Part shown: positions 2,211 to 38,100 of the stretch, piece after piece
Layout: each line of letters opens with the position of its first letter
Numbering within the stretch: the stretch's first letter is position 1
Source of the DNA: Watersipora subatra
Lineage: Eukaryota > Bryozoa > Gymnolaemata > Cheilostomatida > Watersiporidae
Reading direction: 5' to 3'
DNA length: 64,000 nucleotides
Assembly: GCF_963576615.1 (NCBI RefSeq)
Contig: NC_088711.1
Coordinates: forward strand, 9,418,869 to 9,482,868
Program-made: the position numbers and the translations under genes
The notes under the pieces: model-generated
Seen by the model: the letters and a program-made list of their open reading frames with translations, nothing else
Told to the model about the DNA's origin: nothing
Database searches by the model: none

Positions 2211-5200
2211 AGATCAGGAGTGTTAATAAAGTACAGAGAATAAGTATATGTACAATTATTATAAAGTGCTGTAAGAGATCATCAAGAGTGTTAATAAAGT
2301 ACAGAGAATAAGTATATGTACAATTATTATAAAGTACTGTAAGAGATCATCAGGAGTGTTAATAAAGTACTGAGAATAAGTATGTGTACAATTATTATAA
2401 AGTGCTGTAAGAGAACATCAGGAGTATTAATAAAGTACAGAGAATAAGTATATGTACAATTATTATAAAGTGCTGTAAGAGATCATCAAGAGTGTTAATA
2501 AAGTACAGAGAATAAGTATATGTACAATTATTATAAAGTGTAGTAAAAGACCATCAAGAGTGTTAATAAAATACAGAGAATAAGTATGTGTACAATTATT
2601 ATAAAGTGTAGTAAGAGATCATCAAGAGTGTTAATAAAGTACAGAGAATAAGTATGTGTACAATTATTCTAAAGTGCTGTAAAAGATCACCAGGAGTGTT
2701 AATAAAGTACTGAGAATAAGTATGTGTACAATTATTATAAAGTGCTGTAAGAGAACATCAGGAGTATTAATAAAGTACAGAGAATAAGTATATGTACAAT
2801 TATTATAAAGTGCTGTAAGAGATCATCAAGAGTGTTAATAAAGTACAGAGAATAAGTATATGTACAATTATTATAAAGTGCTGTCAGAGATCATCAGGAT
2901 TGTTAATAAAGTACAGAGAATAAGTATATGTACAATTATTATAAAGTGTAGTAAGAGATCATCAGGAGTGTTATTAAAGTACAGATAATAAGTATATGTA
3001 CAATTATTATAAAGTTCTGTAAGAGTTCATCAAGAGTGTTAATAAAGTACAGATATTAAGTATATGTACAATTATTATAAAGTGCTGTAAGAGATCATCA
3101 AGAGTGTTAATAAAGTACAGAGAATAAGTATATGTACAATTATTATAAAGTGTTGTAAGAGATCATCAGGTGTGTTAACAAAGTACAGATAATAAGTATA
3201 TGTACAATTATTATAAAGTGCTGTAAGAGTTCATCAAGAGTGTTAATAAAGTACAGATATTAAGTATATGTACAATTATTATAAAGTGCTGTAAGAGATC
3301 ATCAAGAGTGTTAATAAAGTATTGAGAATAAGTATATGTACAATTATTATAAAGTGCTGTAAGAGATCATCAGGAGTGTTAATAAAGTACTGAGAATAAG
3401 TATATGTACAATTATTATAAAGTGTAGTAAGAGATCATCAAGAGTGTTAATAAAGTACAGAGAATAAGTATATGTACAATTATTATAAAGTGTATTAAGA
3501 GATCATCAAGAGTGTTAATAAAGTACAGAGAATAAGTATATGTACAATTATTATAAAGTGCTGTAAGAGATCATCAGGAGTGTTAATAAAGTACAGAGAA
3601 TAAGTATATGTACAATTATTATAAAGTGCTGTAAGAGATCATCAAGAGTGTTAATAAAGTACTGAGAATAAGTATAGGTACAATTATTATAAAGTGCTGT
3701 AAGAGGTCATCAAGAGTGTTAATAAAGTACTGAGAATAAGTATATGTACAATTATTATAAAGTGCTGTAAGAGATCATCAGGAGTGTTAATAAAGTACTG
3801 AGAATAAGTATATGTACAATTATTATAAAGTGTAGTAAGAGATCATCAAGAGTGTTAATAAAGTACAGAGAATAAGTATATGTACAATTATTATAAAGTG
3901 TATTAAGAGATCATCAGGAGTGTTAATAAAGTACTGAGAATAAGTATGTGTACAATTATTATAAAGTGCTGTAAGAGATCATCAAGAGTGTTAATAAAGT
4001 ACAGAGAATAAGTATATGTACAATTATTATAAAGTACTGTAAGAGATCATTAGGAGTGTTAATAAAGTACTGAGAATAAGTATGTGTACAATTATTATAA
4101 AGTGCTGTAAGAGATCATCAAGAGTGTTAATAAAGTACTGAGAATAAGTATATGTACAATTATTTTAAAGTGCTGTAAGAGATCATCAAGAGTGTTAATA
4201 AAGTACTGAGAATAAGTATATGTACAATTATTATAAAGTGCTGTAAGAGATCATCAGGTGTGGTAAAAAAGTACAGAGAATAAGTATGTGTACAATTATT
4301 ATAAAGTGTAGTAAAAGTCCATCAAGAGTGTTAATAAAATACAGAGAATAAGTATGTGTACAATTATTATAAAGTGTAGTAAGAGATCATCAAGAGTGTT
4401 AATAAAGTACAGAGAATAAGTATGTGTACAATTATTCTAAAGTGCTGTAAAAGATCATCAGGAGTGTTAATAAAGTACTGAGAATAAGTATGTGTACAAT
4501 TATTATAAAGTGCTGTAAGAGATCATCAAGAGTGTTAATAAAGTACAGAGAATAAGTATATGTACAATTATTATAAAGTGCTGTAAAAGATCATCAAGAG
4601 TGTTAATAAAGTACAGAGAATAAGTATATGTACAATTATTATAAAGTGCTGTCAGAGATCATCAGGAGTGTTAATAAAGTACAGAGAATAAGTATATGTA
4701 CAATTATTATAAAGTGTAGTAAGAGATCATCAGGAGTGTTATTAAAGTACAGATAATAAGTATATGTACAATTATTATAAAGTGCTGTAAGAGTTCATCA
4801 AGAGTGTTAATAAAGTACAGATATTAAGTATATGTACAATTATTATAAAGTGCTGTAAGAGATCATCAAGAGTGTTAATAAAGTACAGAGAATAAGTATA
4901 TGTACAATTATTATAAAGTGCTGTAAGAGATCATTAGGGGTGTTAATAAAGTACAGAGAATAAGTATATGTACAATTATTATAAAGTGCTGTAAGAGATC
5001 ACCAGGTGTGTTAACAAAGTACAGATAATAAGTATGTGTACAATTATTATAAAGTGTAGTAAGAGATCATCAAGAGTGTTAATAAAGTACAGAGAATAAG
5101 TATGTGTACAATTATTATAAAGTGCTCTAAGAGATCACCAGGTGTGTTAACAAAGTACAGATAATAAGTATGTGTACAATTATTATAAAGTGTAGTAAGA

Positions 5201-5468
5201 GATCATCAGGTGTGTTAATAAAGTACTGAGAATAAGTATATGTACAATTATTATAAAGTGCTGTAAGAGATCATCAGGTGTGTTAATAAAGTACAGAGAA
5301 TAAGTATATGTATAATTATTATAAAGTGCTGTAAGAGATCATTAGGAGTGTTAATAAAGTACTGAGAATAAGTATTTGTACAATTATTATAAAGTGCTGT
5401 AAGAGATCATCAGGTGTGTTAATAAAGTACAGAGACTAAGTATATGTACAATTATTATAAAGTACTGA
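2211..5468. repeat. Satellite array, 68-bp monomer, about 48 copies
   Basis: The monomer contains the words GTGTTAATAAAGTACAGAG and TATGTACAATTATTATAAAG and repeats every 68 bp (for example TGTTAATA at 2221 and 2289). Monomers differ by a few bases and by variants such as TGCTGTAAGAG, TGTAGTAAGAG and TGTATTAAGAG. Rare variants recur exactly 1768 bp (26 monomers) apart (2541/4309, 2881/4649, 3051/4819), which shows a large internal duplication; smaller 3- and 6-monomer steps also occur (3051/3255, 3493/3901). Every monomer holds an AATAAA. No gene is seen. Confidence 0.95.
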
Positions 5469-5880
5469 TAAAGATTGTACATGAACATTTTCTTATGTAT
5501 ATATTCAATGTTTCATTTATACTATATTATCTTTATTGTGTCCTATCTACTTGAATATTTTCATATATTTCAAGTTAAACATAAACTATTTTATTTTTAT
5601 TGAAACAAAATGATGATGGAAATAATGAATAATACATATAAATATATCTTTTAAAGTGAATAATTTTGTAATAAAACTGATCTTTCATTCAACATATTAA
5701 TTTCTCCAACAAATTTCAATCTTACATACAAAAAAATACAAAAAAAAAAACCGAAAATAAATTCCTTAAAATTCTTAACCATTCAAGGAGCTTCAACATT
5801 ACAAAATCATCAAATCTTCAAAAAATAACTTTGTACATAAACACTTTCTCATATATATTCAATGTTTCAAATATATAACA
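5469..5880. other. AT-rich non-coding stretch
   Basis: No gene is seen. Two related segments (about 5478-5515 and 5830-5870) share the words TTGTACAT, ACA, TTCTCATATATATTCAATG and TTTCA with small differences, so a short dispersed duplication flanks the stretch. Confidence 0.5.
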
Positions 5881-18067: not shown

Positions 18068-21000
18068 TTAGCATAATAATTGGCATAAGCTTTCACAGAC
18101 ATTTTGTTCTGTAATACACAAACATGAGAAATAGAACACATCAAGTACCTGTATCAAGCCTGAGCTTACGAGAACTGTAACAAGGAGGGGGTGAACTTTT
18201 GCAGACTTGAAGTACGCGATGATTTCACTTGAGCATCCAACCTGCAATAAGCGATGACATTGGTAGACTTCATACACTCATTGTGATAGGCCTTAATACA
18301 TGACCATAATAGGCCTCAACATATTCAGCTTACTATGCCTCAATACACGCACCTTAATAAGGCCCGACACGTGCACCATCATAAGCCTCAATATATGCAC
18401 CTTAATAAGCCTCAATATGTGCACCATAATAAGCCTCAATAAATGCACCTTAATAAGCCTCAATAAATGCACCTTAATAAGCCTCAATATATGCACCTTA
18501 ATAAGGCCCAACACGTGCACCATCATAAGCCTTAATATATGCACCTTAATAAGCTTCAATATGTGCACCATAATAAGCCTCGATAAATGCACCTTAAGAA
18601 GCCTCAATAAATGCACCATAATAAGCCTCAACACATTCACCTTACTATGCCTCAATACACGCACCTTAATAAGGCCCAACACGTGCACCATCATAAGCCT
18701 CAATATATGCACCTTAATAAGCCTCAATATGTGCACCATAATAAGCCTCAATAAATGCACCTTAATAAGCCTCAATATGTGCACCATAATAAGCCTCAAT
18801 AAATGCACCTTAATAAGCCTCAATATGTGCACCATAATAAGCCTCAATAAATGCAGCTTAAGAAGCCTCAATAAATGCATCATAATAAGCCTCAACACAT
18901 TCACCTTACTATGCCTCAATACACGCACCTTAATAAGGCCCAACACGTGCACCATCATAAGCCTTTATATATGCACCTTAATAAGCCTCAATATGTGCAC
19001 CATAATAAGCCTCAATAAATGCACCTTAAGAAGTCTCAATAAATGCACCATAATAGGCCTCAACACATTCACCTTACTATGCCTCAATACATGTACCTTG
19101 GTAGCTATCATTGTATGCGTCGTAATAAGCCTCAATATGTTCACCATAATAACCTTCGATACACGCACCTTAGTAAGGCCCAACTCGTGTGCCGTAATAA
19201 GTCTCAATATATGCACCTTAATAAGCCTCAACACATGCACCTTAATAGGCCTCAATACATCCATCTATGGCTCCTTTCAGTTTTCCTTGCTTTTTAATTT
19301 ATATTCAACTTCTCAGCATTTTATTACTATAATAATATCAACAATAATAATAATGCAGAAAGGCTAGGATAGAGCAGCACACCAGGACAGCATGTTTATT
19401 ATAGAATGGGGAAGATAAGACAGTAAGCCATTTGATCAGTGAGTGAAGGTAAATGACACAAGCACAACACAAACACAGACATAAAATGGCTGCAGTTCTA
19501 CACAGAGGTACAGAGTTATATATGTAAGAGATATGAACTACCACATCCAGAGAAATGGTATGATTACTGGAGAAACAACCGTATAACAAATAGTTAATGG
19601 TTCTGGGGAACTTCTATATGCAGACAAATAGTGAGAGAGACAAGAAAACCTTGCATCATATTAGTGAAGAAACAGACAATCAAATGTCAAAGTATAAACG
19701 CAGCAATAGTTAGAAGATGGAAAGAGTGGTAAGGAAAGAACATGAGGTATGAGTTTTATTAGGGTAGCCTAATACTAAAAAGCCAATAAGACCTTTTGGC
19801 ACTATTTACTGCCTAAAGCCTATATTAGACCATATTTATGAACGTTTTATTGTAACAAATGACTCTTTCAATAAATAAAATCAAAATTAAACTTTTTAGC
19901 TTAAAAAAAGTCACAGTTTTGTTAACATTTAATTTTTAGAATTACAAAATTGAAGTTATCTACAGTTGTTTTATTCTTAGATCATTAAAAAGTGATCTCT
20001 AATTACTCTGTTGTCTTGCTGTCAGCTTCATTCATTCAGCTTTTTTATCTAGTAATTCTACAATCATCACTAAAAACAAGAACTTTTCAGATCAGAATGT
20101 TGATAAGTGCTTTTGTGCGAAATACAAGCATTAATGCTATGAATATGCTAATATGAAGGAAATGCTATGATAATGTCTCTGCACATCTACATGTTAATAG
20201 TCTTTTAAGTCAAAATACAGTCAAAATCAGCTATTTTAAGGTCAAAAAGTCAATTATTTTAAGTTTGTTTGACCTAAAAACTTACTGGACTTAAAGACCA
20301 GCAAGTTTTTAGCTCAAAATTTGAGTAGCCCTAGTTATTATTATTTAAATATTTAAAAAAGAGAAAATTTTTTAAAACCAAAGCTGAATTTTTGACTCAC
20401 TCATAATTTTGTACACTCAAACCTATAGATTACATGAATTGGCCTGCTTGCATGAGGTGTTCTGCTTACCTCATATATGGTACCGTTTGCCCCTCTGCAC
20501 ACTTCTGGCACATCAGACACAGAGTTGTATGTGTCACTCCAGGAGTCTAAACCGCAGCACTCCAACTACAATATCACAATTGTGAATGACATGAAATGAC
20601 ATGGCCAAATAAAATAAATACAATAAATTTGCTAAAAAAAACTTAAGGTAAGGCCACACGAGACAAAATTCTCACGAAAACGGCGAAATTTGGACGAAAC
20701 GATTCGTACGAATTGACATTTGGACGAATTCGTCCATCGTTGGTTGCGCACGATGAACGAATCCTGAATTGGACGAAACATCAGAAATTCCTACAAATCG
20801 TTGTTTGATTGGTCGGTTGAAAAGGTTAGTTGAATGTTTAGATTGTCACCGCAAAACCTCAAATCTCCCACAATGCATCTTAAATAATGCAATAACCAAA
20901 GCACCAAACCTTTAAAAAGCCCATAATTTACCATAGACTATATAAATATATAAGCAAATATTACTTAAATATAGCTACATGTATATAGTTTCTATATATA

Positions 21001-22840
21001 GAAAACTGCTATATAGCTGAAATAAGCCTGATATTCAAAACACTGTAAACCCCTACACGTAAGTGAATGATAGGCTTTTTGGTATATTTCTTAATTTTTA
21101 ATAACATTTGGACTACACTCAATTGCATTAAACTTTAAGACAATATAAACGCTTTAGAACCTCTAGCATGCATAAAATCACAAGCTAAATGTTAGAATAC
21201 CTGCTACATGTACATGTAGATACAAAACTGATCACCACATTGCACATATCACAGAAGAGTTGTCTGACCAGTCTGCAATCCCAAGAGGATGCAACTCCCA
21301 CATAAAAGCACATAACTTTGACTGTTGCCTAATATTGTTACTCACTGCATTTTCTGTCTGTTCAATGAGGTATGGGTTAGTCTCACGCCAAATTAGTTGT
21401 ACCACAGACTCCTCCTACAATCAAGTATCATATATTACATTAACTTTTGCAGTTTTTATAATCTACTATCTCTGAAATTAATTCCTGGATCTTGCAAAGC
21501 TTTGTCCAAGAATGCTCTGAGTTTAAAACTATACCATGACTTGACAATCGTAGCTAATTTCACACCTAAATACGTATGTAGCAAACATTAACATATCTGT
21601 ATGTAAAAAAGAGCTTTTTCTTTTAATACGCATAATTTTACTTTATTACTCATTATTTTTATCTCATGGTCTAATTTGCTTTGAATGCCCTTGACCGGTG
21701 TAAATAAAGTTCATATCTGTGTACCGACACCTCAATGGGCCTCTCTACAGGCACCTCAATGGGCTTCACTACAGGCACCTCAATGGGCCTCACTACAGGC
21801 ACTTTAATTAGCCTCTCTACAGGCACCTCAATAGGCCTCACTACAGGCACCTCAATGAGCCTCACTACAGGCACGTTAGCACACTACAGTTTACCTATAT
21901 ATTTTGTATGCTTGAACAAAGGCTTTTAAGATGGCTTCAACATCCGTGGATAGACTGGATTTTGCGAAAATAATATGAAATGGGTAATGTTGTAATTTAA
22001 CCACTATGTATAATTGTTGTCTGTAACATAACTAACATTACTAAAGGAATGATGCTACATTTTGGGTAATTAAAAAAACTTGAGGTAAAAACATATAGCA
22101 ATATTTTGTGTTTTGCACCTGATTATTAATTTTATTTTTTTGTATATGCAGCAGATAAATTGGTGTTTGTATTACGAAATCGTTAGGGAGTTTCGATAGC
22201 TTTGTAATATTTGAAAAAGCTCATTCTTTCATTTTCATTTATAATATGTAATAGGATATAATCACATATCTTTATTTATAAGCGCATTATGAGATAGAGA
22301 CATATATCAAAATAAATACGTAATATATTTTGCTGTTCAACTTACCGTCTTGTAGAGAGCATAGCAGCTGATGAGGAGGCAGATTTCAGCAGCAATCAGC
22401 AGTACAAATATCACTACGTACTACAATCATAGACATCATACCAGTTGTACTTATCCTAGTACATATTACAAACAAGTTTGTCTGTATTATTACTTTATTG
22501 GCAATAATTTCATTTCAAACAAAAATATTTTTTAAATTAGGATATACAAGAATCATGAAACCAAAAAGAAAAAGGGCAATAGTTAGCTACTAAAATTAAA
22601 TAACTGGTTTAATATATATGTATTGTACATTGTTGTTGTACATGTCTTGTATATGTTGTAACACAATAATAAATAATACTATGAAAAATAAACAAAATTA
22701 TATACTTTTTATGATTAGATACTTTTGTAAAACTTGTCGATCTCTAGTATTGTATAACATAACTCTACAGAAATATCTATTCATAGAAAGTATATTATTT
22801 TGTCTATTTTTCATATACCCTATATATCTATATATATAGC

Positions 22841-22901
<61 letters not shown>

Positions 22902-25900
22902 GCATACACTGAGCGGCATAATCATGTCGCAGGTATTGTGTATAGAAATCTATGTGATGAGTATGGCCTTAATAAACCACAACACTGGTGGGAAGCTCCT
23001 GGTAAGGTGAATGAAAATGACCGCGCTAAGATCCTCTGGGACTTCTACATCCAAACTGACAAGCATGTCCTAGCAAACCAACCAGATATAGTGGTGGTAG
23101 ACAAGGAGAACAAGAGGGCTACTATAATAGATATAGCAGTACCCAATGACTACAATATAGCCAGCAAAGAAAAAGAAAAGGTAAAGAAATATCTCCCTCT
23201 TGGAGAAGAAATTGAAAAATGCTGGAATGTAAGAACAACTGTAATCCCAGTAGTCATTGGGGCACTGGGCGCAATAACACCGGCGCATAAAATGTGGCTT
23301 GCCCAAATACCAACAACAATCAACTCAGGTGAGTTGCAGAAAAGTGCTCTATTGGGAACAGCTAAGATCTTGAGGCGAGTGCTCAAACTCCCAGGTCTCT
23401 GGTAGGAGACCCGAGTTAGAGCAGAAACTACCACCCATACGGGGTATCCGGGGTGAGGAAACAATTTTATATATATATATATATATAGTATAATATAGAA
23501 AGGACTTGGCTGTTAGTAATCGCGACATATCTGTTTCGAACAGACATAGGTCTGACATGTAAATATCTGTATGTAAATAAATACATTTGTGTAAACATAT
23601 ATTTATTTACATATATATAACAACAAGTTTGTAGCAGTTTTATATTTCTTATGATATGCACTCCTAACCTCATGTGCTCTGCCCAAACTGAACGAGACAA
23701 CAAGCAGTATTTGTGATACTCACCGCTGCCGCCATGGAGCAGCTGTTACTAAGGGAGGCCAAGAAACCAATAACACATACGATGAAAGCCACCAATGATA
23801 TTGCAAGCATTGAGTATGACACTTTCTACAAACAAATAAAACAAATAATTATTATCTGAGCTACTAAACATGTATTTAAATAGTCTTTATTGAGTCTGGC
23901 GCTTTCATTTCGCTTAAATTTAATAGAAAAAAACTTATTAATTGATAAAAGTTAACAGCTTCTATTGAATGCATTTTAATATCTAGCTGATCATCATATA
24001 AAAATAGAAATAAATTATCAAATAAAAAAACTCAAGGAATGAAATAGATTTCAGTTGATGCATAAATAGACCTCTAATGACTTATAAAATGCAGACGTTG
24101 AAGTCACAAGTCATCTTGTAGCAGTGGATATGGAACACTTTATGACATCACGACGATACTCACTTGACTTCCAGTTGTAAAGGATTCGACTGATCCTGAC
24201 ACCTGCCATATCGCTAAACCAAAGACTCCAATAGCAATAAGCTAAAAAAAATAAATATTGCTAAAGATGTATTTGTTAAACATCAATGTGTAATATATTT
24301 CCATACCTTTTAGATCACAGAAACCTAACTTACCTCATATTTAGCATGGTAAGCTTTTATTGATGTAGGTATATTAAACAAAATAATACAGAAATATTCT
24401 GTAATCATATCAAGAATGCAGATGCTAGAAACTAAGATAGCATTGTACAAAACTAGAGGAGCCATGATTCATAGCCAGCAAAACCATCACAACACGAATT
24501 TGAATAGCCATAAACAGACATCACACTGCGAAGACATACATAAAGCTTTGCATGCAGAGAACTAGCGCCAGAAGCACACACTGAAGAACACTAACAAATC
24601 ACAAGAGAAAAATCATAGACTATTGACTCATTATGACAGATTTACACCATTCTCTACTAGCTACATGTAGATGGTGTATAACTAACAAGTAAACACTCGA
24701 AGAAAAAGAGTTTCTAAGGAGTGTTTCTCTCCGTAGAAACACTTGAGAGAAAGTAGAAGCTTCCAAAAGACTGGGCTAAAAAGAAAAGATCAAAAGCGGG
24801 TGATAAAAGGTTGACCTCCCCATCACAATGGCTGCTGTTTGTAGATCGCAATTAGCAAATAAATAATATAGGACACAAAGCAAGTGTTGTCAAGTCCATG
24901 GTGCAAATGAGCCATGCCGTCAGCATCTGCGAGTCTGTTTACAAGACTGTTTTAGTAACGGCCATAACACAAGCAACGCAAACAGTATTAGGAATTCTTT
25001 ATATGCACTGTGTGCACTAATGCTTTCACTTATTTACCAAAGGCTTATTATTTTAGATTAAAAAGAAATTCTTTGTAATGGATGAAATGATTGATCATGG
25101 GTAGGCCAGGAAATATTCATAACGTCTTACAAGCCTTTACCAAAATAGTTTAATTATTTATTCAGAATGGATCGAAATTGTGAGTGATAAAAACAGCTTC
25201 GCCATAAAGTAATCGGCAGCCACAAGTTCTTAACTGGTTGGTCAACTCTTTCATAGCCAAAATGAGAACTAACACTATGCCAAGGACTTCTCACTTGCAC
25301 TCTATTAATGTTATAGTTGTTTCCACCTGAGCTTCTCAGCGACTCTTTATGCGTTTGAACAACCAAACGAATTTTAAATTAGTTCTCACAGACCTGAGGC
25401 TATAGTAGCAATGAACCTGAGGCTAAATATTCAATGTTATCTATGGATTTGTGAAAAATGGTTGGTAGGGAAAGTTTTTCGAATGGCACAGAGATGCAAG
25501 ATAGTTATGTTTAGTAGTAGTGCTATGGAAAGACGGTTATAGGATATTTTTGGAAAAGCATGAACCCTTTACCCAATTTTTTACTTATTTAAGCTTTTTA
25601 TAGCCTAAGATTGCCAGATACTGAGATTTTCATATACACTGTAGTTACAGAAAAAACCAGGATGTTTCTGTTATAAGGTAGCTTTGATTAAGTTAGCCAA
25701 ATGTAAGATCCAATGGATTCCTGTATCTGTAAATGCGAACCTGAACAATATGAAGTGTGATCAATATTTGAGTAAATGTATATGAATTCAATTAAATATG
25801 CAGAGCATTTGAAAAAAAGATAACTCCATGTAAAATAAGTTTATATAACATATTTTACGGTTTTTGATCATTTTTGTATCAATACTTTGCACACAGTTCC

Positions 25901-26634
25901 TACTAGCAATATCATGTACAACACTTGCTAGATACAGTTTCTATGTGTTCAAAAGATGTTTACGGAAGCACAACAACAAATCTCTTGTCAAAAAAACATC
26001 GCCGACTTTTTTATTCATTTGAGAAATTTTTACAAGGTTTCAGTGATGGTAGGAAATAAGAACTTCTCCAAAAAGTTCTGGAACAAGGTAAGAGCTGTTT
26101 TCCCTCTAAGCTAACAGTGGAAGAGGTTAGAAAATATATCAGGTGATTGCTTCCAGCCACTTTGAGACAAGTCAGTGTTCTATACAGTGTTCTATACTAT
26201 GTAATATGGCAAATTAGCAAAATCATGTGTAATATTTGACACGTTTGATCCAATAAAAATCATGGTATAGCCTAAAGAGATATGAACCGCTAATATTGAA
26301 TTCCAAAAGATACACATGTGGAGCTAATCACCCAGAACAGTGGGTTAAATATAGAAGCATAGAGCTACTCACCCAAAATAGTGAGTTTAATATGGAAGCA
26401 TAGAGCTACTCACCAAAAATAAAACTTTAATACAGAAGCACAAAGCTACTCATAAAAACTAATGAGTTAAATATGGAAGCATAGAGCTAATCACCCATAA
26501 CAGTGAGTTAAACATAGAATCATAGAGCTACTCACCCAGAACAGTGAGTTAAATATTCCAAAGAAGGTTTTTGTTGAACTACAGTCACTCTCTTTATGTT
26601 GAAGAGTGTCAGGTGTTAGTCTTTCTGAACTCAT
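18068..26634 (-). CDS. Tetraspanin, complete, 230 aa
   Basis: Seven coding exons, all phase 0 with GT-AG introns: 26536-26634 (ATG at 26634), 24164-24241, 23724-23825, 22346-22420, 21346-21414, 20470-20565 and 18068-18241 (stop). Tetraspanins are four-pass membrane organisers of the cell surface and endosomes. TM1 spans the first intron (FFGIFNSLFW then LIAIGVFGLAIW). TM2 reads LVAFIVCVIGFLASL and TM3 YVVIFVLLIAAEICLLIS. The large loop has the hallmark CCG (LECCGLDSWSD), then PEVC and GC, giving four cysteines. TM4 reads VHPLLVTVLVSSGLI. The loop before CCG is short (about 29 residues). A GTACTT after LIQ could be a donor, but read-through completes TM4 and stops after LCQLLC. Introns hold 24-bp and 41-bp arrays and an RLE-type LINE. 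The subfamily is not assigned. Confidence 0.9.
18290..19262. repeat. 24-bp minisatellite with variable higher-order units
   Basis: The unit reads approximately GCACCTTAATAAGCCTCAAT plus ATAT, about 40 copies, in the last tetraspanin intron some 50 bp upstream of the final exon's acceptor. A marker variant (TACTATGCCTC) recurs at 18331, 18643, 18907 and 19075, spaced 13, 11 and 7 monomers apart, so higher-order blocks of unequal length have been copied. Because the period is a multiple of three, long frames stay open on both strands (355 codons on plus, 221 on minus). These are not genes. Confidence 0.92.
20650..20860. mobile_element. Possible end of a DNA transposon
   Basis: A GC-richer stretch in a tetraspanin intron begins AAGGCCACACGAGACAAAAT and contains several GGACGAA and ACGAATT words in both orientations around 20690-20770. 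This looks like the terminal region of a DNA transposon or MITE. No matching inverted end or duplication was found, so the call is tentative. Confidence 0.3.
21723..21874. repeat. 24-bp minisatellite, second array in the tetraspanin gene
   Basis: Six copies of a 24-bp unit (GGCACCTCAATGGGCCTC plus ACTACA). It aligns to the 24-bp unit at 18290-19262 with about 18 of 24 bases equal, although another intron of the same gene holds it. Open frames on both strands are artefacts of the period. Confidence 0.88.
22843..22900. repeat. (TA)n microsatellite
   Basis: An uninterrupted TA tract that borders the 5' end of the LINE fragment. Confidence 0.95.
22907..23488 (+). mobile_element. 5'-truncated RLE-type LINE (R4/Dong-like) tail
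   Basis: An open frame from about 22911 to 23405 gives the C-terminal end of a non-LTR retrotransposon. It starts ERHNHVAGIVYRNLCDEYGL, like the end of the zinc-knuckle region, and continues KILWDFYIQTDKHVLA. It then has the restriction-like endonuclease signature PDIVVVDKENKRATIIDIAV (PD, then D after about 14 residues) and ends LLGTAKILRRVLKL. A 60-bp 3' UTR (containing GGGGTATCCGGGGTGAGG) follows and finishes in a (TA)n tract at 23468-23488. With the TA tract on the other side, the element appears inserted into a TA microsatellite. It sits in a tetraspanin intron in antisense. The frame has no internal stop, so it is fairly young. The clade is an inference. Confidence 0.8.
26319..26564 (-). 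repeat. 41-bp array containing the splice donor of tetraspanin coding exon 1
   Basis: Six copies of a 41-bp unit, starting at 26319, 26360, 26401, 26441, 26482 and 26523. The last copy overlaps the end of coding exon 1, and the true donor (CTGG then GTGAGTAGC) is inside it. Read on the minus strand, the other copies carry GG-GTGATTAGC, GG-GTGAGTAGC, TG-GTGAGTAGC, AT-GAGTAGC (GT lost) and GG-GTGATTAGC. Exon end plus donor has therefore been tandemly copied into the intron, leaving four further GT donors, two of them with the strong GTGAGT form. Confidence 0.9.
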
Positions 26635-28614
26635 GCTGCCGTCCTTCAGGTCATTTCCTCTCTAGCGGCAAATCTGGGAATCCAACCCTAACTGCGTATA
26701 TACAGGATTACAGTAGATGTCAAAGGACTTGGTAGTCACAAGCAACGACAGGCTTCATAGTAAGTAAAATACCAACGGCATGAATTGAAAATCAGCTCAA
26801 CTGTTTCTCTCCATCTTATTTGTCATGTTTACAGATATACTTCTACCTGTTATTGTGCAGTCAAATTCAAAAATAGAGCTCAATATACTACTTACAAAAC
26901 CAGTTATAAGAATAGTAAAATGCATTTTACTAAAATGGATTCGCAATACAATTCATAACTTGAATCAATTTTAGTAAAATATGCTTCACTTACATGTATT
27001 CCATATATATTTATAGAATAATTAGTAAAAACATACATATATATGTGCTATTATACAATACCTATAATATATTACTAAACAGTCCTCAAACAGTTAAAAA
27101 GCTGTCAGTATGCGATGCCGTGATATATAAATAACACTAATGCGCTACCAGCTTAGCAGCTAAATGGCTGGCGACAATACGATTCGCTGCGGCAGTGAAC
27201 TCTTATAGTGAGGAGACTGTTTAAAGACCAACCAACTAATTTAAATGAATAACAAAAGAGAGAGAGCAATTCTATACACCCTCTAACAACACGGTCACAA
27301 TGAGCATATTAGTTGTGAAAGGCTTAAGTTCTCCTTCCAATGTAAATGCTACCATATCCAACACAAACAAACCACTAATATGCTGTCAAGCAGTATTTAT
27401 TAATACTGTGCGGCAGCGAGAACAGAAAAGCATCGCTTTGAAGTAAACAAATTCAACCAGAAAGCATGTCAGTGTCCTTAATCAATGAGATAATAATATG
27501 CTATTACACCAGCTCACAAGACATGTGAATGTATATAGTAGGATCACCTAATGGTTCTATCAACACAGTTCTGCAGAAATTTTCGATAAACAATTCTGTA
27601 ATATGTGTACCTTTTCTTGTCATTTTATCATATTTGTACAACTATGACACCCTTTCAAAACTTTACAAAATCAGGCTTGTTGACAGAAGAATCCATTACA
27701 CTTTCATGTTTTAGTCAATTTACGACGAGAGTAATCACAAAAAATTGTTTAAACCTTTGAAGCCTAATCATGTATGGATAAGAATTGAAGCCTAATCATG
27801 TATGGATAAGAAGGTGCCCTGATTCTAGACAGTATTAACAACTTTCTAGTGACTGTGAAAGCACCTAAAGTTGCACAATTCCTTTTAACTGGATATCGTT
27901 TCGACGCTCTAAGCTTGTAGAATTCAACGAAAGAACCAAAATCAGTTAATGATGAGTTTTTCCACACTTTCTCAATATGTGATGTTTTAGAGATACATGT
28001 AATTGGAGAGAATTAACGATTGCGGCACGGTGTCTGATGATGGTGCATATCTGTTACAAATAAAAAACAACTAACTTTAGTGTAAAGATCTTGCTGCGAA
28101 AAAGCTTTTTAGCTTAGTCTATTTCCAAGCTTTTATTGCCAAAAATATCAATAAGTGAGTCATGAAAAACATGTCATGTCAGCAGCCATTTTTCGTTGCT
28201 CGTCCAGTTTAAAATGCTGTCAGTGTTTTGGTGATATCTTGCAAACTAGCAGCATAATCGACTTGAACCTTTGGAATTATACAGTAAACTTATGAAGCAC
28301 AAAACAATCAGAATTTCATGATTCTAGCTAAACTTGAAGTGGATAAAAACCAAACCAAAACTATGCAGCATATCAGGCATAGTATCAGGTGGAAAAAAAC
28401 TCCCCAAATTATCTTGGTCCAGGTAGAGGTGTCTGGATGAAGTATGATGTTAGGAGCATTAGTTGATCTATTTTATTCACAATAGCAGTCTAAGCTGCTG
28501 ATCTTCACTAGGCCGTCACACATGGACTAGTCAGGTACAAGAACAGGAAAAGCTTTCTGTATTAGAACTAATCGTATGAGCACTGCATTGTATAGCACTT
28601 ACAATATGTCTCTG
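26635..28614. other. Intergenic: 5' flank of tetraspanin, 3' flank of transporter
   Basis: AT-rich with no recognised gene. It includes the tetraspanin 5' UTR and promoter region (not resolvable) and a 30-bp direct duplication at about 27756-27812 (GAAGCCTAATCATGTATGGA repeated). Open frames here are short and match nothing I recognise. Confidence 0.4.
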
Positions 28615-29143: not shown

Positions 29144-32100
29144 CTAAAGAATTGCAGTGTCCGAGCTGTGCCCTAAATATATAATCCCACCTAGAAAATT
29201 CATGAAAGCGGCTATGATGAAAACAGGAAACCACCGATTGCCAGACTGTGTTACTAGTTCTGCGGTGAGCGGCCCGCAGAGTATTCCTGGGATGGTCGCC
29301 TACAAGAGAGAACATAGACAAATCAGTGAATTGAATAAAATTACATTTAGGAAACAGTGATAGCATTGAAAAATAAACTTCTAGCTCCTTGCATGTGCAA
29401 ACCTTATGCTTACGGGTATCACATGTAGTATTGTGAGTGGTATCATGCATGGTATCACACGTGTTATCATGTGTGATACCCTACATGGACATAAGGTTTG
29501 CACGAATGGTATGACACATGGTATGATGCATTGTATCAGGCAAGGTACATGGTATCACAAATGGTATCAGATAAGGTATGACGCATGGTATCCCACATGA
29601 TATCATGCATGATATTCCACATGGTATCATGCAGGCTTGCTGCATGAGATACACTGTATTTGTACATAATCCTAAAACAGCCATTTTTGGTGAAAAGTTG
29701 AATTTACTAAACCTTTCCTCTGAGTGCTGCTAGTCTTACGCCTCATGTTAGGATTAACCAAAATTAATTTGCACAATGCAGCACATATTTTTCTTTTTCC
29801 TTTCACTCATGAGTCAGTGAAGGTTACACAATTCTGGTTGCTGTTGACAATACAAATGAGCCTCACTGACAAAACAATATTCAAGGGGAATTGATAAAAC
29901 CAAACTTGTTGCCTCAGGAAAAAAAGATCATATACATGCAATTTATGAGAAGAGTTATTCGTTAACCTTGCATGACATGATCATGATGTACTTACAAATC
30001 ATGTGAGACCTTAGGAGATGCATGAAATCCAAGCTTAACTTAACTCCAGCAAAAGGGTGGACAGAGCTAGGTTTGTACCCGACTGCTGTGCCATAAGCAG
30101 TAACAACTCTGTCTACATCTGTCTAGTTACCCGAGACATATGCTGACAGTAAAGAGATTGGCTAGTAAGGAATCAATTGTTTCACACAAAAGTAATAAGT
30201 AACGAAGATTCATACCAGCGTATTAGATATAGCGAAGGTGGTTCCAGCAAAGTTGGGAGCTACATCAGCGTGATTACTCAAATGTCCCGCGGAGTTGCAT
30301 GCACTCAGTCCCATTGAAATAGTTACACAGCTACAAAAGTGCGTATGGAGCAGTAGAAAGTCAGCGCTGACAATGTGTATGGGAAGTAACTACAAACTTC
30401 ACAGACTCTGAATCAAACAAACCATATGAAAAAAGAGGGCTGAAGAGTAGAGATACAATCGGGGCTAAAAATGCCAAAAAAAGAAGCGATAAAGGTTAGA
30501 GAGAAAAGACAAAAGAGACAGACAATGAAGTGAATAATCGTTTATACTCACAATAATGCTAGCATGAGATTATCGATGACGCTAAACCATAGCATGAGCA
30601 CCCCAGGTCCAATCAGACCTATCCCCGTCATGAGACGCCTGACTTTTAGAATTGGCCACCTGTACTGAGAGATCAGCCTATCAGCTACATGACCGGCCGC
30701 TGTAAGACAATCAGCTGTGTGACAGACGAATCGTAATGCACAATTTTGGAGTTATTCTCCCAACAGATGTGCAGCGGTGGTCAAACAGTTTTGTGAGCAA
30801 ACTAATATAGAGAAGAAAATCCCATTCACCAGGTATATGACTAGGTATTGACGCGAGTACCAACAGATACATGAGAAGATAACTCCAAATCCATACTCAA
30901 TTATCCAGGTTTAAATGTTCAACTGTGGCTGCATTTTATTATGTGAGAGTAACAAGGCGACCAGAGCATAAAATTGACAAACAATTTTTTGCAGAGAATT
31001 AAAGGTACTTTTACACTAAGAAATTTTGTGGGTGATGACAAGTTTTTCATTGACTTTCAAAGAAATTACAATTGTAAAGAGCAAGTCATATCAGCTACAG
31101 CTGTGAAAATCATAAGCTATTCATCTCTGCTAGATTGCAGAAATATATTTCAGATGAGTAGCAAGTAGTGTATCATTTTCAGTGATTACACAGTTCTCAT
31201 ATAATAGTTTAAATTCGCATCCATACTTATTAATAAATATTTTAGCTTGTATAAAAGTGATGAATATACCAAACCTATGTTCATTCTTAACCCTGAAGGT
31301 TTAGCGGTGAATTTTATTAGCTGAAGCCAAAGATAACAAAAATAATAAACAAATCCCATAAAAAAGCACATGCATGCAAGAGTCACATATCCCAATCACC
31401 TCGTGTGAATTTACCCAAGTGCGGCTCAAATGCTCGATGTAAAAAGAAAATAAAATATTTTGCAAACCAACAGCAAGTAAAGTGATACAGAAACGCGAGA
31501 TGCCATTTCACTCAACTTGATAACACTATTATCTAGGTCAAAAGAGGTGATGCAAACACTCGCTACAGTACAACTACAGGTGATGCAAACACTCACAACA
31601 GCATAACTACAGGTGATGTAAACACTCTCTACAGTACAAATACAAGTGGTGCAAACACTCACCACAGTATAACTACAGGTGATGCAAACACTCGCTACAG
31701 TACAACTACAGGTGATGCAAACACCCACTACAGTACAACTCCAGGTGATGCAAATACTCACTACAGTATAACTACAGGTGATGCAAACACTCGCTACAGT
31801 ACAACTACAGGTGATGCAAACACTCATTACAGAATAACTACAGGTGATGCAAACACTCACTACAGTACAACTACAGGTGATGCAAACACTCACAACAGTA
31901 CAACTACAGGTGATGTAAACACTCGCTACAATACAACTACAGAACAAACTGACTACAACCCAGTTAACCAAAAATGCTGGTGACTATCATTGCTACCAGC
32001 TGTACAATGGTGAGTGAGACAGCTGTACAATGGTGAGTGAGACAGCTGTACAATGGTGGATGAGTCAGCTGTACAATAGTGAGACAGCTGTACAATAGTG

Positions 32101-35100
32101 AATGAGACAGCTGTACAATAGTGAGTGAGACAGCTGTACAATGGTGAATGAGATAGCTGTACAACGGTGAGTGAGACAGCCGTACAATGGTGAGTGAGAC
32201 AGCTGTACAATGGTGAGTGAGACAGCTGTACAATGGTGAGTGAGACAGCTGTACAATGGTGAGTGAGACAGCTGTACAATGGTGAGTGAGACAGCTGTAC
32301 AATGGTGAGTGAGACAACTGTACAATGGTGAGTGAGACAGCTGTACAATGGTGAGTGAGACAGCTGTACAATGGTGAGTGAGACAGCTGTACAATGGTGA
32401 GTGAGACAGCTGTACAATGGTGAGTGAGACAGCTGTACAATGGTGAGTGAGACAACTGTACAATGGTGAGTGAGACAACTGTACAATAGTGAGTGAGACA
32501 GGTGACAACTGAAATACGCTGCACACATCTGGAGTTTTCATGACTGTTTTGGGTGGATGATCTATGATTGAGTGATTCAACCAACACTTGAATTTTTTAA
32601 TCCGAAAACTAAGCTTTTTATATTATCAAAGGATTCCTCAATGGTTTGAATGGAATGCCAGTCTAATGTGCTCGAAGACTCGTTGTTTTAAAACTGTACT
32701 GTTAATCATAGGGCTTCCAAGCACTTATGTTAATAGGATATTAGGACAGAGAGATTTTTAATACTTAGCATTGGTTCCATAATTTGGTAACATAGACAAC
32801 ACAACTGTCTGCACTGGCAGAAAGCTTGTTTAGTATATATACTACATAACTGACCTTTGAATACCGCAAGATGAGTCTACCAGATGAATTTGACAACTAT
32901 CAACTAAAGCCGGCCATCTATAAATTGATTCCTTGTAAGTGACTTTTCAGATAATGAAATATTCGAATCATGCTATCCCTAAGCTAAACATGAATGATAA
33001 TTTATTTTATTGTTCATATTAGGCTGTCTGAATGAAAACATTATTCGGAAACCATTATCAGAATATAACTCTTTATTTGCATTTAAATGAGATTTCTATT
33101 ATTCAGGTGCTATCCTACACTTGGCAATGATCCCATATTTTGTAACATGTGAGCCCCCAAAATAAACAAAACTTTGTTTTCTGTCTTTAGTTAATTTGCA
33201 CTGGTAAAAGGTTGCATGCTTCACCTGGGTTACACCTACTACCTTCACCTCGAATATTTCCATTCCAGTAAATATAATAAAGCACAACATACCGACTCCT
33301 GTAATGCTGTTTAATATATAAGGAGCAGCTGTGTACATGATATCTCTGTGCTCAGCATTTAGGGAAGCCTTCATATATGTGGGCAACCAGTGCATGACTA
33401 TATAGTTGCTCCAGTTCATGGTGAAGTGTGCTATGTAGAGGGACCAGAGAGCCCAGTGCTGTACAAACTCTCTCCAGTGAGACAGCAGACTACTAGATGA
33501 CTGTAACAGCGCACGCATCATACTCAGCATCACTGTGACGTGAACAAGGTATACATACAGCAGATGTCGATATGAGAAAAATATGTGCTACCATTGAATT
33601 AAAACTGTCTTGGTCAAACATCAAGTGACTGCAGGCCTAGATTACGGACAAATGCAAACTTATTCCATGATAAATTGCCAGCACAGCAGGGACAGGCCAA
33701 ACTAAACAAACAAAAGGTTTTTCCTAATAATAGCCATGTACCTCCGAGGTAATCCAAGCGTAAACCAGGAACAGCAAATTCGGTGTTAAGCACAATTGAA
33801 CTGAGAGAATGTCACACTTTGCTAGGCAGTGAATTATAGTTGGCAACACTAGGTATATAATTCAAGTTATATACTAGAAGAGCCAACAATTGAAGACAAT
33901 GCGACCTAGTCTGCAGCTGCTCATGAACGATGTGCGCCATAACAACATGGCTATCAGTTTTCTGTGTCAGCTAGCTACCCTTGTATAACTGAGCAGACCG
34001 AAAAAAAAGTGAGGGACGGTCAAGCTGCCAACCCTCTTCTATACTCGTATGAATGCGGAAGGCTCAGGTTTTAAGATTTTTCATAGCTAAAATGAGGAGG
34101 GGTGTCTGTAGATGTGTGTGTGTGTGTGCGTGCGTGTCTCCCGCCCTCTCTCCCTACCTCCTCCCCTCTCTCTCGTCTATGTTATTACTATGTCAGCTAA
34201 ATAGGCTTGAACAGAACACAGAGCTGTAACTACATATGAAAATGTGAAAAACAGTGTAAGCTCTTTTTGTTGTCTAGGCTATTTACAAGTGAACCATAAC
34301 TGACTAGCCGGAAATGAAATTAAGCAATATTGTTTTCACACAACAGAAAGTCTATAAACATGTTCTCCATATAGCAAATCCATGAACTACTATATAGGAA
34401 AGATGTGAATATTAGATGAAAAAAACAATACTCAATATACTATCATGAAATTGGAGCCCATTCCAATGTTTCATGAAATATGATTAAAACTTTAATCCAA
34501 ATGGTAGAGCGTTCATCACATACAATGACAGGATATATGTACATATGTATCTAATACTGGTCAAACAAAATACATTTCCAATATTAAAAACTACTTCCTT
34601 CCTAGCTATCAGCAAAAAGTTTGTTACAAAAATAAGATGAAACGATTGACGATCAAGAAGGTTAAGGGAAAGAGAATCACACATGCCACAGTAGTTTTTC
34701 TTGAAATTAACCAATCATAGCCCACACCAAACAAGCCTTCTGGCTACGTATACCGATATAGCTCTTAAACATCTAGGTGATGCGAAGCTTAAGCTAGTCA
34801 AACATAACAACATATAGTTTCCTAGTAGGAGAAATGCCCTCAATATCGGCAATAATATTTTTGGAAATGCCTAGCCAATTGCAACATTTATCAAGTTGCT
34901 ACCAAATGAATTTATAACCTTTCAATGCTAAAGCATAAACCCTTATCAGTGAGTGGTATCAACACTAACCTACGCTATTGTAATACCCTGCAATAGCTGA
35001 TATGCAACCTGAAAAGATCTACTAAAGGGCAATGAACATCTGTACTCTAACACAAATAAATTTGAAGTGCATTTTCAAGATTACAAAACATAGACTATTT

Positions 35101-38100
35101 TTTAACGATTGCTTGTGCAAAAAGAAATGCAGGATATTGACAATAGAAACAGGAGAATCAGTTTACCTTGCTCGGGTCCTCAAACTGCTCTTCATACTCC
35201 TGTATTGATGCTGGATTTATGTCGATATAAAAGAGCAGCCAAAGAATACACCAAATAAAGCCTAAAGAACCAAATGCATAGAACATCCACTTCCAATCCA
35301 AGTGAGGACAAATCTAAAAATAAGGTATCTCAATTATTACTGCAGGGTGATAAGGAAGAACATAACTTAACGCAAATGCGCAGGAAGCTGAAGAGAGTCT
35401 AGATTGGAAGAAACAAGCTCAATCTTCAGCAGGCGGATCATATAAAACTGTTCAAACACGCAGTAGCTCCTCATTATAATTGACAACATCTGCACAAGCC
35501 TCAGCTGACAATAAGCTTTAGTTCAAACAATGCTTACTATAGATGAGAGAGTCTGTCCGATGGATCCACATGCTATTAGATATCCAAAGGCTGTTGATCG
35601 ATGCTCAGCTCCAATCGCGTGAGAGAATATATGAAATATGGTTGGAAGACCTGTGAACAATATATGTGACCAATACATATCCACGCTTGTTTTATTAAAT
35701 AAAATAATGATCACCAGATCACCATGCAACACTACCATGACCACAAGTACTACCATGACCACTAGTACTACCATGACCACTAGTACTACCATGACCACTA
35801 GTACCACCATGACCACTAGTACCACCATGCAACACTACCATGACCACTAGTACTACCATGACCACTAGTACCACCATAACACTAGTACCACCATGACCAC
35901 TAGTACTACCATGACCACTAGTACTACCATGACCACTAGTACTACCATGACCACTAGTACCACCATGACCACTAGTACCACCATGACCACTAGTACTACC
36001 ATGACCACTAGTACTATTATGACCACTAAGAGTACCATGACCACTAGTACTACCATGACCACTAGTACTACCATGACCACTAAGAGTACCGCTATGACCA
36101 CTAGTACTACCATGACTACCAACACTACCATGACTACCAACACTACTATGACTATCGACCAATTAAGTTAAACAAACTAGTACAGCTGTTGGTACAGTTA
36201 AATCTTGATATAAAGAATTGATACAGTTAAAAATTCTCTTTGCATGTAAAAATCTATATTGGAGCAAACACTTCTATCTATAAGAATACATGTATTTTGT
36301 TTAACTCACCCAAAAGCAAAATCAATAACAATAAATACATAGTTGTAATAATGAGATAACATATGTACCGAACTTAAAACCAACTCATTACATATAAATA
36401 CGTAAAAACTATAAAATATAAAAATTACATGCAAAAACTAAATATTTAAAGATCAGTAAAATGTTTTTATTGTTACTTTATCTTAGAGATAAATGAACAT
36501 AGGTGTAGGCAATAGGTATGTTCAGTGGTAGAGTGATAGAAATATGTAGTGTAACTTACACTAACTAACATGTACACTACATACAACAATGTACATTAAC
36601 AAAGTTAATGTACATTGACTTTTACATTTGATTTTTAAAAAAACTTTCAAATTTTTATTTTCAGTGTCAAATATGTGATCTTCCGACAATCTCTGGACAT
36701 TGTAGGTTACTTATGTTAATTAAACAAGTTATTGACTTTGTACTTACATTGTATATTACACATTGTACTTACACATGTACACTTACATTGTATGTTACAC
36801 ATTGTACTTACACATGTACACTCACATTGTATGTTACACATTACTTACACATGTACACTTACACTGTATGTTACACATTGTACTTACACATGTACACTCA
36901 CATTGTATGTTGCACATTGTACTTACACATGTACACTTACATTGTATATTATACATTGTACTTACACATGTACACCTACATTGTATGCTACACATTGTAC
37001 TTACACATTGTACTTACACACGTACACTTACATTGTATGTTACACATTGTACTTACACATGTACACTTACATTGTATATTATACATTGTACTTACACATG
37101 TACACTTACATTGTATATTATAAAATACCTTTGCATGTCGACAAAAATAACACACACTAGTTACCACAGTTCTATTTATCTCAATATTTACATTTATATA
37201 TATTTTACGCTGAATCAATATCAGCTTTTTTACTATAAGTAATGGGTAATGCTTCAGTCACCGCCGTATATTTGAAATTTAGAAATGATTGTAAGTCTAG
37301 GTTTGACTTTATGATGAAAGTTTTCAAAACTTAATAGTGGAACATTTTATAATATTTAACAATGTATAATATATATTAAATAACTGCATAAAATATAGTA
37401 TTATGAGGTATAATAAATAGGCCAAGAGTTACTATAAACTATAAACATAAGCAAGGCCCAAACTTAGAGATAGACATCAAACACAAGTATGAAAACTATT
37501 CTATCACGTAAATTATTGCTAGAGTCAGTAGAGTATCCCTTGCATGGACAAGCATTATCAACATAGCCTTACAGACCTAAGCCCTCGCCGATGCCCAATA
37601 AGACACGAAGCCCAATAAGTTTCCAGAGAGAATCAGCAAAATAAGGAGTAATAAATGTAGAAAGAGACCAAAGTAGGACAGCCACTAGTAAAGTAAACTT
37701 CCCTCCATAACGCTTTGCAGCACTGGCTCCAAGAATCTGTAACAAATAACAAATTTTTTATAGCTCATTATATATAGTAAAACATAGGCATTAATGTAAA
37801 CTGAAATGTATGCTGATGAAAGTATATGTCAAATTCTCATAATATGACTGATGGAAATGAAACTTGAGGTGCTAAAATAAGGACCTGCTGCAAATAAATA
37901 AATATTTGTATCAACCGACTTGCAACATACTTACACCACTAGCCATATAGCCAACAGAAAATGAACTGAGAATCCATCCTTGGCCATGTAACGACCACTT
38001 GAACTGCTGTGACATGGGTATGATAGCTGTTGGCATAATGACCCGATCAGCAGCATTGATAAAATTGGCTGCTGCGCATAGAGCCACTATAGTGTTCACT

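Follow-up and report, generated by a model that had tools for sequence, protein, structure and literature searches.

A minisatellite straddling the first 5′ splice site of a bryozoan tetraspanin gene carries copies of its donor

The 64,000-nucleotide stretch of Watersipora subatra DNA analysed here (hereafter the window; contig NC_088711.1, positions 9,418,869 to 9,482,868) carries on its minus strand a gene that, as far as sequence can tell, encodes a tetraspanin (PF00335). A degenerate 41-bp minisatellite of 236 bp straddles the border between coding exon 1 and intron 1 of this gene, taking in the 5′ splice site. The protein spliced from the first six exons matches PF00335 with 72.5 bits, against a cut-off of 32.1 (E=5.4e-20), and each of these exons has a length divisible by three and no internal stop. 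All six introns of the model are in phase 0 with GT/AG borders. The exon assignment behind a first-pass annotation of the locus is upheld by the Pfam match and by the borders and phase of the introns. Tetraspanins carry in their large loop a CCG motif followed later by a GC motif, and both are found, in exon 6 and probable exon 7 respectively (Table 1).

Exon 1 encodes the start of the first transmembrane segment (TM1). The end of TM1 aligns with FN..FWL of CD9 and with TSPAN15, both weakly (E=1.5 and 2.7), these being the only PDB matches at E<=10. A whole-genome protein search returned seven matches at E<=0.001, one for each exon of this tetraspanin gene, and no close paralogue from which the array could be dated. 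The open frame of exon 7 has no Pfam match when taken alone. An exon-by-exon search of the genome with the Pfam tetraspanin profile found 24 other places and did not list this gene among them, which fits its divergence. Two further features lie within its introns. A 24-bp array of about 41 copies (18286-19260) stops some 44 bases short of 18241, the probable exon-7 acceptor, close enough that it could affect the branch-point region. Intron 3 holds a plus-strand open frame of 186 aa (22845-23405), retroelement-like by eye and with no Pfam match.

Table 1. Features of the tetraspanin gene and its donor-spanning array, in window coordinates; a slash marks the exon-intron or intron-exon junction
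Feature	Position	Strand	Remarks
Coding exon 1	26536..26634	-	MSSERLTPDTLQHKESDCSSTKTFFGIFNSLFW; unit 1 begins with its last 21 nt; open reading frame with upstream in-frame stop at 26664
Intron 1	24242..26535	-	
Exon 2, rest of TM1	24164..24241	-	tttttttag/CTTATT; phase 0
Exon 3, TM2	23724..23825	-	
Exon 4, TM3	22346..22420	-	
Exon 5	21346..21414	-	
Exon 6, CCG motif (LECCG)	20470..20565	-	
Probable exon 7, GC motif (VGC), TM4, stop codon	18068..18241	-	ttattgcag/GTTGGATGC; open to stop
Unit 1	26516..26556	-	True exon end and true donor; first intron base 26535; TGG/GTGAGTAG
Unit 2	26475..26515	-	Weakened decoy donor 26494; TGG/GTGATTAG; contains in-frame TGA
Unit 3	26435..26474	-	Dead donor 26453; TTT/ATGAGTAG; GT lost; 40 nt
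Unit 4	26394..26434	-	Decoy donor 26413; TTG/GTGAGTAG; exon-like half is the most diverged
Unit 5	26353..26393	-	Decoy donor 26372; TGG/GTGAGTAG; -3 to +8 identical to true donor
Unit 6	26312..26352	-	Weakened decoy donor 26331; TGG/GTGATTAG; homology peters out after GTGATTAGCTC
Predicted RNA hairpin over true donor	26530..26549	-	ACUCACU paired with GGUGAGU; -9.3 kcal/mol

Tandem Repeats Finder places the array at 26321-26556 (5.8 copies, 79% matches, 3% indels, score 281), and alignment of the units resolves it into six minus-strand copies of 41, 41, 40, 41, 41 and 41 nt, the first of which begins 21 nt upstream of the exon-1 end. Pairwise identity among the six ranges from 51 to 90%. The six-copy, 41-bp array over the exon end and its donor that the first-pass annotation had described is confirmed by both analyses, as are its counts of GT at the junction in five of six units and of GTGAGTAG in three. 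Beyond unit 1, a usable donor consensus is present as GTGAGTAG in units 4 and 5 and as GTGATTAG in units 2 and 6; around decoy 5, one base differs from the true donor among the 16 surrounding bases compared. Junction coordinates denote here the first base after the junction on the minus strand. On that reckoning the decoy positions given previously were each one base low (26493 for 26494, 26412 for 26413, 26371 for 26372 and 26330 for 26331), and 24241, previously named as the acceptor, is the first base of exon 2, with the acceptor AG immediately 5′ of it on the minus strand. A seventh, decayed unit past unit 6 was rejected, its best alignment being equalled or beaten by 95 of 500 shuffles. 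A further decayed unit elsewhere in intron 1 was likewise rejected (best score 17.0, below the shuffled mean of 18.2).

The direction of copying follows from the age of the intron site. Intron 1 interrupts the gene in phase 0, immediately behind the tryptophan codon of TM1. Eight tetraspanin loci were considered in all, two of which (L002, L005) are large-loop matches and fall outside the intron-1 comparison; among the other six, the TM1 exon starts with the corresponding codon after the acceptor AG in five (L001, L003, L004, L006, L007) and differs in L008. Ancestral tetraspanins are reported to have had six phase-0 introns, with intron 1 found also in Amoebozoa (PMC2650405), and the six phase-0 introns of the present gene agree with that reported pattern in number and phase. 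Since the intron-1 site is common to five of the six paralogues and fits the ancestral tetraspanin introns, we infer that the donor long predates the array, which grew from it. On this view the units further downstream are duplicates of the exon border, as opposed to an array that reached the exon by chance. The earlier proposal that the array had multiplied a genuine donor gains support from the conserved intron-1 site and from the Pfam-backed exon model.

When each decoy junction is joined in silico to the following exons, translation invariably ends early: 55 codons precede the stop with the junction at 26494, and 47 with any other. Offsets of 41, 122 and 163 nt shift the frame, in line with the earlier statement that decoy use would usually do so. 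That statement understated the outcome, for all decoys stop: the offset of 204 nt keeps the frame and yet ends prematurely because unit 2 carries an in-frame TGA. Under the exon-junction rule, messages with such premature stops would be targets of nonsense-mediated decay. Use of the decoys would be expected to give truncated TM1 fragments only, and no alternative tetraspanin. These uniformly early stops would suit a regulated switch, in which use of downstream donors lowers the tetraspanin through nonsense-mediated decay; a stop is also the likely outcome of any random intronic insertion.

The predicted strength of the decoys speaks for such a switch as well, in that strong donors are kept in units 4 and 5. 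With the human sequence taken for the U1 5′ end, units 1 and 5 have a predicted U1 pairing of -12.0; unit 4 reaches -10.8, units 2 and 6 share a value of -6.4, and unit 3 has the weakest, -4.2. Predicted donor accessibility is 0.23, 0.24 and 0.23 in units 1, 4 and 5, and higher in the weak or dead units 2, 3 and 6 (0.50, 0.34 and 0.35). Decoy 5 equals the true donor in predicted pairing, and in predicted accessibility decoys 4 and 5 both do, which counts against a preference for the first donor; given this equality, the local sequence offers no reason why the first donor should win.

The true donor can also form a stem, ACTCAC and GTGAGT lying eight bases apart in unit 1. Stems of equal or lesser predicted strength occur in units 2, 3, 5 and 6, and unit 4 has lost its own; all six pairs are kept in units 1, 3 and 5, and the stem is broken in units 2 (five pairs), 6 (four) and 4 (one). 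A predicted hairpin able to cover the donor in most units could in principle be regulated, as a switch would need. The unit-1 stem alone was matched by 14 of 500 shuffles, and folding of the whole array is only mildly better than that of shuffled sequence (z=-1.72; 10 of 200 as good). Of 186 GTGAGT sites in 264 kb of sampled DNA, six are preceded by ACTCAC at a distance of no more than 18 nt, counting that of the present array. Selection on the hairpin was not adopted as an explanation: three units are broken, the folding excess is mild, and the strong decoys and the true donor are alike in accessibility. The modelled hairpin is a curiosity and does not itself point to a function. In unit 3 (26435-26474) both arms have changed together (ACTCAT and ATGAGT), as hairpin template switching could produce.

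The pattern of decay among the units gives no sign of special retention of the decoys as donors. Mismatches to the unit consensus affect 3 of 30 positions of the donor hexamer and 32 of 174 elsewhere (Fisher p=0.43; with five decoys the test has little power), and mismatches to unit 1 affect 3 of 30 and 38 of 174, respectively (p=0.22, for the same five decoys). The array is among the more degenerate of its kind, its match percentage of 79 being undercut by 7 of the 78 sampled arrays with units of at least 15 bases (median 90). A DNA search of the 784-Mb genome, which skips very common words, matched the array at this locus only.

The genomic setting is rich in minisatellites. We sampled 264,000 bases, made up of the window and 20 stretches of 10 kb that all come from one contig (C1), and 83 non-redundant arrays cover 32,000 of them, or about 12%; outside the window, arrays cover 22,201 of 200,000 bases. 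Where arrays are this abundant, one falling across a splice site now and then is to be expected and should not astonish. At the eight tetraspanin loci (L002 and L008 overlap), no array overlaps a profile match, the nearest starting 21 bases beyond that of L002, which speaks against this kind of overlap being a common occurrence.

Seven of the 83 arrays contain GTGAGT on one strand or the other, where shuffled units predict 2.2 (p=0.006), an excess that we discount because four of the seven lie inside the window, itself chosen for the present finding. The corresponding figures are 4 against 1.2 among the 39 arrays that have three or more copies of a 15-100-base unit (p=0.016), and 3 against 1.6 among the 57 arrays outside the window (p=0.21); for GTRAGT, they are 8 of 83 against 5.1 (p=0.11). 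Over the whole genome, a pattern of three GGTGAGT motifs spaced 15-45 matched 2537+2337 times (4874) and its reversed control 1586+1625 times (3211). This 1.5-fold excess is no count of events, since each array is counted many times; the matches listed, all at the start of contig C1, amount to five arrays. Seeding of arrays by donors as a genome-wide rule is neither claimed nor dismissed, the hint of an excess coming from the set that contains the window and not from the arrays outside it.

Several other repeats occur in the window. Positions 1-2088 form a large inverted structure, with arms 1-177/1912-2088 (100%) and 166-450/1636-1920 (99%) around an TTTCGCGAAATT repeat array, which by eye resembles a foldback-type element. 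The longest array of the window follows at 2213-5475 (68-bp unit, 48 copies, 93% matches). Two adjoining arrays at 31545-32508, with 33-bp and 23-bp units, both contain GTGAGT, on opposite strands; these arrays with donor-like units (31545-31942 and 31997-32508) touch no exon end recognisable by eye, and the exons beside them have weak matches to MFS transporters, below the Pfam cut-off. A further array with donor-like units lies at 36871-37116.

Taken over these results, the regulated switch seems unlikely. Donors are not retained in excess, two decoys are weakened and one is dead, and there is neither a second genomic copy of the array nor a close paralogue that would show conservation. The first-donor rule drawn from a human library (PMC6783452) weighs against it too, while the reported use of repeat donors in human IFI6 (PMC4526556) provides it with a precedent. 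Decidedly improbable, in our estimation, is a copy-number rheostat, whose repeated donors would by their number and strength set the productive share of tetraspanin mRNA, each added unit would produce nonsense messages, and the shared hairpin (ACUCAC with GUGAGU) would gate access. We give a shade less credence to the extra donors acting near the transcript start as platforms for the binding of U1 snRNP, where they might aid splicing of the intron or suppress premature polyadenylation; the two strong and two weak additional U1-complementary sites predicted within 204 nt speak for this, the restriction to a single locus against it. Very little weight attaches to the exon assignment being wrong or the gene a pseudogene, in which case no donor would have been multiplied. 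The exon-7 frame without a Pfam match and the gene's absence from the 24 profile places could be read in that way; the six phase-0 GT/AG introns, the uninterrupted exons 1-6, the match of the spliced protein (E=5e-20) and the conserved intron-1 site point to a genuine gene. Tandem arrays can be misassembled, and yet units that differ by 10-49%, in an array of only 236 bp, make collapse or duplication error in the assembly a negligible concern.

We favour, with a probability of roughly three in four, a tolerated minisatellite accident: an ancient donor was copied, its units decayed, the first donor is used most and aberrant mRNA is probably degraded. A short tandem duplication of the exon-1/intron-1 junction would have joined 21 nt of TM1 codons to 20 nt of intron, and slippage or unequal exchange in a minisatellite-rich animal genome may have expanded it to six units, which would then have decayed without selection to keep the decoys. 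The first donor would be used most, being first and strong, and it alone yields the full protein. Units 2, 4, 5 and 6, if used, would add 41, 122, 163 and 204 nt, lead to a premature stop and probably expose the message to nonsense-mediated decay. The sequence itself shows the anatomy, the frame outcomes and the decay of the units, and the age of the intron site gives the direction of copying. First-donor use, loss of the aberrant mRNA and neutrality of the copies enter this account as suppositions, and low-level nonsense transcripts perhaps arise from the decoys. Between a tolerated hazard and a built-in switch, the two possibilities offered by the first-pass annotation, the truncated products, the lack of donor retention and the single degenerate array favour the hazard, and render the switch unlikely rather than refute it.

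The donor-spanning array is real and uncommon, and its explanation is modest. The locus provides a natural test of donor choice, with one acceptor and two donors identical from -3 to +8 and 163 nt apart, together with weakened and dead copies, in one intron. Should the decoys be in steady use, differences in repeat copy number would translate into differences in expression by way of nonsense transcripts; should they not be used, the locus would be a case from nature that position by itself can settle the choice between donors of equal strength. The result to be expected is a modest one.

Known systems offer partial parallels. In a designed human library of tandem donors, the first of two equally strong donors was reported to be predominantly used (PMC6783452), which by analogy supports the earlier suggestion that the first donor wins. 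The same source notes that older evidence was in conflict and that exceptions arise from the broader context; its donors are close, as they are here, but they are designed pairs in human cells, unlike the natural repeat of six units in the tetraspanin gene. Tandem duplication of splice signals has been reported to lead to intron gain or to changes in gene structure (PMC2891723, PMC2812944). Those cases, as described, concern new introns inside exons, whereas here the donor of an old intron has been duplicated within that intron, with no sign of an additional one. Minisatellite arrays are reported in intron 1 of earthworm metallothionein genes (PMC12783039), an invertebrate first intron with a minisatellite, as here; its units are not known to include the splice donor. 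Titles, abstract openings and passages from searches of an open-licence library gave no description of a donor-spanning minisatellite in a tetraspanin or in an invertebrate.

The closest parallel is IFI6. Its units are 12 nt long and add in-frame residues, unlike the 41-nt unit described here, in which every decoy leads to a stop. Keeping the reading frame is a detail of IFI6 and not essential to minisatellite donors of this kind. In both genes a minisatellite supplies several donors to one transcript, one per unit; the tetraspanin array, as this kind requires, spans an exon-intron border. Two downstream units of human IFI6 are reported to be used as extra donors (PMC4526556), whereas those of the tetraspanin gene are predicted decoys. 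The principle of minisatellite donors is already known; what differs here is the 41-nt unit and the obligatory stops.
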